A stretch of 64,000 bases of DNA, taken from NCBI GenBank assembly GCA_003330885.1, contig CP030277.1, positions 248,001-312,000 of the forward strand. The letters run 5' to 3'. The DNA comes from Rhodobiaceae bacterium (GTDB lineage Bacteria; Pseudomonadota; Alphaproteobacteria; Parvibaculales; Parvibaculaceae). Under the pieces are notes generated by a model, which was not told the origin of the DNA, made no database searches, and saw only the letters and a list, made by a program, of their open reading frames with translations. The position numbers and the translations under genes are program-made. Every line of letters starts with the position of its first letter. Position 1 is the first letter of the stretch. Positions 18,945 to 20,979 of this stretch are shown piece after piece.

Positions 18945-18994
18945 TTAGAGCATTTCCAGGCGAAGTGAATTCGGTTCACCGTGAGGAAATGCGG
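18945..18994. repeat. Interspersed palindrome, family 2, copy B
   Basis: Outer arms GCATTTCC (18950-18957) and GGAAATGC (18985-18992) pair almost perfectly; the interior (GGCGAAGTGAATTCGGTTCACC) is diverged from copies A and C but keeps the TTAGAGCATTT entry and a GGTTC-like 3' half. It lies between the SDR pair promoter and the 3' end of the regulator gene. Confidence 0.7.
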
Positions 18995-19083
18995 TGCAAG
19001 AAGTGCGCTTTCGGGGAGAAAGTCGAGATGGGGACAGCGGGCGTGGCCCTCACTCACTAAGTGATCAGCCACGAAGGGTGGAC

Positions 19084-19689
19084 CTAGTCCTTTGGCGTAA
19101 TGATGAATTGGCAGAGCAAGCGACCGTCCCGCTTGCATTCCTCCCGCACGTCTCCCCCTGTGACATCAGCGAAAAAGCGTTCCATCGCAGAACAAACACA
19201 GGGATCTTCTCGTACCGCGCGCCCGAGCGGACAGCTATAGCTGCGTATTGTTATGTGCGTTTCGGTTTCTTCTTTGGATGTGCCTGCCCCGATACCGTCC
19301 AAAAACTGCAAGGCCGCATCGAGACGGGCCTCGAAACTGTCAGACGTATCAGTCTTGACCTCTTGAGCGAGGGAAGAGCCAATCTCGCCCATGAGCTTTT
19401 CGATCTCATGTCTTTCCAGGTAGCTCGGGAGGGTGTTGATCACTTTCTGCAGAAAAGGCTTATAGGCGCCAGAATCGCTATCTTCAGTTCCGGCAACCGC
19501 GCCAAATTCCGTCGGTGGCTTGCCGGCACCGCTGCCCCGTCGCGACTTCCCGTCAACAAGCCCGTCTGCTTCCAACTGCTTGAGCGGGATGATGATGGCA
19601 TTCCGGGTTACACCAAGCCTGTCCGCGAGCTCGTTCACGGTCAAGTTCTGGCGCCGCAGAAGACTAAGGATGGTGTTTTTCGTTTTCAT
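19084..19689 (-). CDS. COG2345/SufR-type HTH regulator with C-terminal cysteines
   Basis: Transcription factor of 201 aa, counted from the ATG at 19689; an upstream ATG at 19806 would add 39 residues read from the AT-rich promoter palindrome and is unlikely. The N-terminal winged helix (TVNELADRLGVTRNAIIIPL, about residues 12-31) is DeoR/ArsR-like. The C-terminus has a cysteine array CPLGRAVREDPCVC followed by EECKRDGRLLCQF, similar to SufR relatives that bind an Fe-S cluster and sense iron or oxidants. It is divergent from a catalase-like peroxidase, and the 42-bp palindrome at 19746-19787 between them is the likely operator. Redox sensing is inferred from family and context. Confidence 0.82.
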   Translation of the reverse strand: MKTKNTILSLLRRQNLTVNELADRLGVTRNAIIIPLKQLEADGLVDGKSRRGSGAGKPPTEFGAVAGTEDSDSGAYKPFLQKVINTLPSYLERHEIEKLMGEIGSSLAQEVKTDTSDSFEARLDAALQFLDGIGAGTSKEETETHITIRSYSCPLGRAVREDPCVCSAMERFFADVTGGDVREECKRDGRLLCQFIITPKD

Positions 19690-19745
19690 GGCACCGGTCT
19701 GGTAGGGGCACCCGAAATATAGCCAAAAACGAACGGATTTCATCA

Positions 19746-19787
19746 TAAGAATAATATAAACAATATTTATTGTTATTAATATTCTTA
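19746..19787. promoter_or_regulatory. 42-bp palindromic operator between regulator and catalase-like gene
   Basis: An inverted repeat with 18 of 21 base pairs complementary: outer arms TAAGAATA (19746-19753) and TATTCTTA (19780-19787), inner arms AACAATA and TATTGTT around the centre 19766/19767. It is the most AT-rich spot in the region, 57 bp from the regulator start and 40 bp from the peroxidase start. Size suggests binding of a dimer or dimer pair covering both divergent promoters. Confidence 0.75.
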
Positions 19788-19826
19788 ATGTGCTAAAAAG
19801 CGGCATCGATCCGAAGGAGACTGATA

Positions 19827-20942
19827 ATGCCTACATTCCAGCACCATGCTTTGAGCAATTACGCGTCAGCCAACCATATCTATCGGGCTCCCTATACTTC
19901 CAAAGCCTCGTTTATGGGGCTCTGTATTGCCTATATGGCCGCTATTCTCATTGGTGGGTGGTCCCTGGTCACAAAGGCGCTCGCAAGTGAGCCGCAAACC
20001 CTTGCGGTGGACGCACCAACTGAAGTCACAGGGGAAGACGCCGTTAATGCGCTAAACGGTGTTTTCGGTCGCCATGCCAAAGAGCGAGGCTCTCATGCCA
20101 AGGGATTCTGCATTGCTGGAGAGTTTGCGCTTTCTGAAGTAGGGGCAAGCTATCTGCGCAACGGTATCCAGCAAAGAGGGCCGGTTTCCGTCGTTGGCCG
20201 ATTTTCAATCGGGGGTGGCAATCCAGCAGCATCAGACAAAGGTCGGTCAGTCAGGGGGCTGGCGGTGAGGATGGAGTTTGAAGACTCCGACATTCTCGAC
20301 CTCGTTATGATCTCTGCGCCGGTCTTCTTTGCGTCCACGCCTCAACAGTTTGTGGAGTTCTTGAAAGTTCGCACAGCAGATCCTGAAACAGGAAACAAAG
20401 ACCCGGAAAAGATTGCGGCGTTCAATAGAGCAAACCCGAACGTCATGGCGCATCTGGATTATGTCTCACAAACTCCGCCGCCGGCGAGCTATGCATCAAC
20501 ACCCTATTTTTCAACACACGCATTTCTCTTTGGCAATGAAGACGGGCCAATGCAGGCTGCACGTTGGCACTTTGAACCTGTTGAAGGATTTAGAGGGCTC
20601 ACCCCAGACCAGGAAAAGGAGTTCCCGGATAGCTTTCTGGAGGACGAGCTGCACGCGCGCCTCGCAAATGGGCCCGTATCTTGGAATGCTTCTCTTCAGC
20701 TTGCGGGAGAAGAGGATGACATTAATGACCCGACGGCTGTTTGGTCAGCGCCTCGTGAGACCTTCATCGAGGTGGGGCGTCTTGATATCTCGCGGACGAT
20801 TGAGCCTGGTGCATCAGATGATTGTACAGGCCAGGTTTTTGATCCGAACAACCTGTCAGAAGGGATACACCCAACTGACGACCCAATTCTTGCAATACGC
20901 CGACCCGCCTATGCCGTGTCCTTTGGACGTCGCGTGCAATAA
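19827..20942 (+). CDS. Catalase-related peroxidase (SrpA-like), membrane-anchored or exported
   Basis: Heme peroxidase of the small catalase-like family, 371 aa. His90 in the HAKG motif fits the distal heme His and R358-x3-Tyr362 near the C-terminus fits the proximal heme ligand motif. SVVGRFSIGGGNP and RGLAVRMEF are further family landmarks. A hydrophobic segment (about 29-48) ending ALAS indicates export to or anchoring facing the periplasm. The AAGGAGA ribosome site is good. Probably removes peroxides or organic peroxides; true catalase activity is not certain. Divergent from and probably controlled by the cysteine-rich regulator. Confidence 0.88.
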   Translation: MPTFQHHALSNYASANHIYRAPYTSKASFMGLCIAYMAAILIGGWSLVTKALASEPQTLAVDAPTEVTGEDAVNALNGVFGRHAKERGSHAKGFCIAGEFALSEVGASYLRNGIQQRGPVSVVGRFSIGGGNPAASDKGRSVRGLAVRMEFEDSDILDLVMISAPVFFASTPQQFVEFLKVRTADPETGNKDPEKIAAFNRANPNVMAHLDYVSQTPPPASYASTPYFSTHAFLFGNEDGPMQAARWHFEPVEGFRGLTPDQEKEFPDSFLEDELHARLANGPVSWNASLQLAGEEDDINDPTAVWSAPRETFIEVGRLDISRTIEPGASDDCTGQVFDPNNLSEGIHPTDDPILAIRRPAYAVSFGRRVQ

Positions 20943-20979
20943 AACGGAGCCGCGGATTGCACCCTGACTCGGTAAAAAC

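Follow-up and report, generated by a model that had tools for sequence, protein, structure and literature searches.

A divergent pair of genes in the 64-kb window (the whole stretch of DNA analysed here, taken from a one-contig 3.86-Mb genome) probably constitutes a horizontally mobile two-gene redox switch, in which an oxidant would release a repressor carrying a cysteine-bound cofactor and so derepress an exported peroxidase. We place the probability of this reading at roughly 0.6; its repression, dimer binding, cofactor and signal are what we infer. Comparative sequence data support the regulator-peroxidase pairing as a real conserved unit, which spans alpha-, beta- and gammaproteobacteria (16 paired loci, including the window). 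They likewise support the palindrome between the two genes as a conserved operator that is confined to loci with the regulator. No account of the pair turned up in open-access papers, most subscription journals lying outside the search. Judged from sequence, the novelty lies in the new target and new operator of a SufR-like regulator and in its extra cysteines.

Layout of the gene pair and identity of the peroxidase

The regulator and peroxidase genes are divergently oriented with the palindrome between them (Table 1), and their neighbours in the window are SDR genes, nadC, nadB and nadA. The regulator ORF, divergent peroxidase, cysteine array, heme motifs and palindrome described in the first-pass annotation were all present, but the palindrome has 17 and not 18 matching pairs out of 21. 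The automatically called ORF of the regulator, 240 aa long from a start at 19806, reads through the palindrome. ATG 19689, giving the 201-aa protein, is the likely start because relatives begin there (MSTKxDIL...).

Table 1 Features of the regulator-peroxidase locus (window coordinates; paired and unpaired loci are peroxidase loci with and without the regulator).
Feature	Position	Strand	Basis or remarks
Regulator gene	19084..19689	-	201 aa; HTH family matches, relatives, invariant Cys, predicted fold
Catalase-related heme peroxidase gene (SrpA / PDB 3e4w type), predicted	19827..20942	+	371 aa; Shine-Dalgarno AAGGAG before ATG 19827
42-bp imperfect palindrome	19746..19787	no strand	17/21 pairs
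Predicted 24-bp operator core TATAAACAATATTTATTGTTATTA, consensus TNATRACAATNNNNATTGTYATTA	19755..19778	no strand	Present in 16/16 paired loci, 0/65 unpaired
Inferred peroxidase promoter	19770..19799	+	-35 TTGTTA inside operator, 18 bp, weak -10 TAAAAA
Inferred regulator promoter	19716..19743	-	-10 TATATT within GGCTATA(A/G/T)T element of most relatives
Inserted cassette, approximate extent	19050..20965	no strand	SDR gene and nadC adjacent in six sister genomes

The peroxidase is predicted to be a catalase-related heme enzyme of the SrpA type, a short form of PF00199 (109 bits, cut-off 25), and is the sole PF00199 protein of the genome. Its nearest solved structure is 3e4w (E = 3e-37) and it is 35% identical to SrpA of Synechococcus 7942, with which it shares the short catalase core, the distal His and the proximal Tyr. 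These motifs (H90 in SHAKG; R358-x3-Y362) aligned to relatives and catalases. SrpA differs in its setting on a Synechococcus 7942 plasmid, where it lies beside a carbonic anhydrase and an Rrf2-family regulator, with no regulator of the window type. A hydrophobic, export-like N-terminal segment (~29-43, then ALASE) was found in the window's enzyme and in 15 of the 16 paired peroxidases overall, the exception being that of Pseudomonas PDM04. The first description of a catalase-family peroxidase with heme motifs and an export segment holds, and the enzyme is probably exported.

Occurrence and insertion of the pair

Searching 84,980 species genomes with an alignment of three peroxidase sequences returned 80 loci; as the search was entered through the peroxidase, regulator counts cover peroxidase loci only. 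A window-type regulator (phmmer 1e-43 to 1e-65) was present at 15 of the 80, always immediately upstream and divergent, and a profile of the regulator subfamily recovered exactly these 15 loci and none of the other 65. They belong to Pelagibius, Kiloniellaceae, a Rhizobiaceae-group bacterium, Pseudomonas, Dyella, Luteibacter, Pandoraea, Ralstonia, Burkholderia and Paraburkholderia. The first-pass annotation had pointed to related genomes as the place to look for the same gene pair and palindrome; the two genes do co-occur there (15/80 related peroxidase loci), and these 15 further loci and the window share one site (16/16). Cytochrome b561, considered as a common neighbour, was rejected: it occurred at 1/65 unpaired loci, although some relatives within the class have it.

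Whole-genome searches of 40 family, 385 class and 398 phylum genomes found no close regulator beyond the window's own. A regulator-only query gave no match against genome contigs and, against plasmids, a single remote copy in Gemmatirosa (33% identical). This nearest unpaired relative retains four of the five cysteines, C164 being the one missing, and no peroxidase occurs in the 12.6 kb of plasmid around it. The Gemmatirosa gene (L053, 5862-6603) adjoins GTP cyclohydrolase-like and CxxCH heme-protein-like ORFs and has its own GTCAA...TTGAC inverted repeat upstream.

In six sister genomes, all from this genus, nadC directly adjoins the SDR gene that flanks the pair in the window, and the pair is absent, indicating that the window holds a ~1.9-kb insertion consisting just of the pair. 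With one inserted cassette and one operator site in the genome, the unit is self-contained, as had been proposed. Next to the insertion site lie two neighbouring SDR genes that both belong to the NCBIfam family PRK08267 (17275-18909). A short inverted-repeat element, GAGCATTTCC...GGAAATGC (18948-18992), also adjoins the cassette and is absent at the same place in the sister genomes; one further copy, with 3 mismatches, was found in the genome (C1:882272).

A conserved operator between the two genes

The palindrome at 19746-19787 tops all palindromes with 21-bp arms in the window, and its score was reached in ~4/3000 Markov shuffles of its own AT-rich core. On window evidence alone, this made it only a fair operator candidate. 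Palindrome statistics taken locus by locus were weak (p 0-0.95), since AT-rich regions make palindromes cheaply, and it was the cross-locus comparison that settled the question. The pattern TNATRACAAT-N4-ATTGTYATTA, with fixed spacing, was present in all 16 paired intergenic regions (window plus 15), each site matching 16-20 of the 20 specified positions. No more than 13 positions matched in any of the 65 peroxidase loci without the regulator, and no more than 15 at any of the 756,391 other positions in these loci. This consensus was derived from the same 16 sites; a matrix that left the window out gives the fairer figure, scoring the window site at 30.2 bits versus 8.5 bits for the best of the 65 unpaired loci. 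Across the whole 3.86-Mb genome, the pattern occurred once when up to 3 mismatches were allowed. Because the 15 related regulators are only 40-52% identical to that of the window, the operator appears to have been kept for function and not as neighbourhood sequence.

In several operators (e.g. L060 4720-4770, L114 4880-4920), ACAAT is repeated once more on each side at ~9 bp, outside the 24-bp core, an arrangement that would fit two dimers. The outer repeat of the window operator is AGAAT/ATTCT, ~12 bp away. Another strong palindrome (47753) has the look of an ordinary terminator and was set aside.

Cysteine array and candidate cofactor

The regulator consists of an N-terminal winged helix (~1-70) and a C-terminal cysteine-rich domain. 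The C-x10-C-x-C array plus two later cysteines noted previously corresponds to C153-x10-C164-x-C166, C185 and C193, and all five residues are invariant in 16/16 paired proteins. Beyond these 16, the broader set of COG2345-like proteins from the class likewise keeps C153, C166 and C193 without exception. Their spacing (C153-x12-C166-x26-C193) follows the C-x12-C-x27-C of SufR, the second gap being one residue shorter. In the SufR protein Rv1460, C203-x12-C216-x27-C244 is needed for function whereas C242 is not (PMC6034842). The invariance of the triad in the class, together with the Rv1460 ligand spacing, favours an Fe-S cluster in the regulator, which is plausible from its sequence. C164 and C185, lying outside the three-cysteine SufR site, count against the Fe-S model.

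The likeness to SufR (COG2345; cyanobacterial sll0088, Mtb Rv1460) extends to the combination of a winged helix with a C-terminal cysteine domain, the C-x12-C-x26/27-C spacing and an inverted-repeat operator with CAA/TTG half-sites and a local target. All 16 paired regulators matched the SufR model TIGR02702, albeit weakly (best 2e-14), the window's protein scoring 34.4 bits versus a cut-off of 178.8. The differences are that the predicted target here is a peroxidase and not suf, no suf genes occurring in 14-26 kb near the pair; that the operator is CAA-N6-TTG, where SufR has CAAC-N6-GTTG (CAA-N8-TTG), with no CAAC within 19690-19826; and that C164 and C185 are two extra invariant cysteines. 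The SufR-type label given at first can thus be kept for the spacing of the Fe-S triad but not for family identity, in view of the score, the other operator and the lack of nearby suf genes.

The same repressor and operator could instead carry a different sensor, either a metal-free thiol switch (a disulfide of C164/C166 with C185/C193) or a zinc-thiolate switch resembling MsvR, which we regard as a serious though less likely alternative. In MsvR, an HTH regulator of methanogens, DNA binding depends on the redox state of cysteines in a V4R domain; MaMsvR, which has C232-x7-C240, represses in a redox-dependent way, and the Mth msvR gene faces away from an operon for oxidative stress (PMC3729527). 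The last two cysteines here share this spacing (C185-x7-C193), as the gene pair shares the divergent position beside an oxidative-stress gene. The AlphaFold model of the regulator (mean pLDDT 82, poor at 156-161, between cysteines) shows a winged helix and a C-terminal domain that resembles BcsD, TRAPP subunits and the sensor domain of DmpR (Z ~11, low confidence at 156-161) and may be V4R/TRAPP-like; sequence searches of solved structures matched the HTH part only. In addition, the C-x10-C-x-C array with C185, invariant in 16 proteins, exceeds the needs of an Fe-S site. A thiol or zinc sensor is, however, harder to reconcile with the SufR triad spacing, identical in the first gap and a residue shorter in the second, and with family matches, as every member hits the SufR model and V4R (PF02830) was matched by none of the 16 in Pfam at E <= 0.01. 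MsvR further differs in being archaeal and in having another operator and target.

Predicted promoters and mode of action

Promoter calls are pattern matches and not mapped starts. At several beta- and gammaproteobacterial loci, TTGTCA within the right half-site and a TAGACT or TAGAAT 17-18 bp further on make a good -35/-10 pair for the peroxidase; the window's counterpart, TTGTTA-18-TAAAAA, is weaker. In most loci of these classes the operator half-site is likely to be the -35 hexamer (TTGTCA) of the peroxidase promoter. On the other strand, the majority of loci carry GGCTATA(A/G/T)T at a distance of 29-39 bp from the operator, probably as the regulator's own -10. Since the operator overlaps the predicted peroxidase -35, bound protein would block polymerase and the regulator would act as a repressor, in line with the original proposal, which this overlap supports by pattern match and comparison. 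A regulator that activates the peroxidase and/or mainly controls its own gene is improbable. The operator does sit between both promoters, with the regulator -10 at the distance given above in most loci, but a half-site that serves as -35 at normal 17-18 bp spacing would leave polymerase blocked in ordinary sigma-70 promoters, and repression is what has been found for the SufR homologues studied (PMC6034842, PMC13421787).

In the oxidant-released repressor that we prefer, a regulator dimer with its cysteine-bound cofactor would occupy the inverted repeat RACAAT-N4-ATTGTY in the unstressed cell. The cofactor would most likely be an Fe-S cluster bound by C153, C166 and C193, possibly with the aid of C185. 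So bound, the regulator would cover the -35 of the peroxidase promoter and keep the peroxidase off. An oxidant (peroxide or organic hydroperoxide) would then destroy the cluster or oxidise thiols, taking the regulator off the operator, and the exported catalase-like heme peroxidase would be made. Sensing of iron loss would induce an iron enzyme in iron starvation, so the signal, if a cluster is present, should be an oxidant. Several features speak against such a switch: the weak -10 of the window's own peroxidase (TAAAAA), the poor model around 156-161, the absence of C164 from the Gemmatirosa relative, and a sensor that is cytoplasmic whereas 15/16 peroxidases look exported. An ordinary SufR-type regulator of Fe-S assembly, placed next to a peroxidase by chance, would account for the distant SufR similarity, but is highly improbable given the score far under the SufR cut-off, the missing suf genes (14-26 kb) and CAAC-N6-GTTG site, the position of the genome's one operator between these two genes and the pairing in 15 further genomes.

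Probable mobility, possible partner exchange and the likely signal

On a quick tree, paired peroxidases occurred at about three separated places, with four pairing changes of which at least three are forced by supported branches. This scatter suggests that the link to the regulator was made or kept repeatedly. In the clade next to the window's peroxidase group (Roseobacter/Roseibium relatives), an OhrR-type MarR regulator lies beside or near the peroxidase at 7/8 loci, and also in G366. These loci resemble the window in the position of the regulator, its dedicated local role and the related peroxidases, but their regulator belongs to an unrelated family, marked by the N-terminal Cys that OhrR proteins conserve (LCFAxY), and they are without the window-type operator. 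As related peroxidases recruit unrelated redox sensors, we infer by analogy that peroxide or organic hydroperoxide is also the signal of the window regulator.

More broadly, we see about even odds that these proteins form a hitherto undescribed family of repressors dedicated to peroxide sensing. Having branched off from SufR, with five cysteines in a V4R/TRAPP-like sensor, the family would have left Fe-S biogenesis and would be spreading, together with its own operator, as a two-gene cassette that controls catalase-like peroxidases in competition with OhrR. The COG2345/SufR-like group, large and mostly uncharacterised, gains a concrete predicted target outside suf, and with the operator resolved to single bases across 16 genomes, binding and cofactor become directly testable. 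A putative control circuit is also assigned to catalase-related peroxidases, on whose regulation we found little in the open-access literature, whilst the swap with OhrR next to related peroxidases lets a multi-cysteine sensor be compared, in a natural setting, with a single-thiol peroxide sensor on related outputs.

Further arrangements were observed at individual loci. In Pseudomonas sp. PDM04 (L112, 4136-5882), the window-type regulator, with an operator palindrome that is long and nearly perfect, is paired with a peroxidase of another clade that lacks an export signal, which suggests partner exchange. At three loci, an OhrR-type regulator is divergent from a catalase-like gene and a second catalase-like gene follows ~70-150 bp downstream (L084, L107) or further downstream (L094), possibly placing two catalase-like genes under one peroxide sensor.
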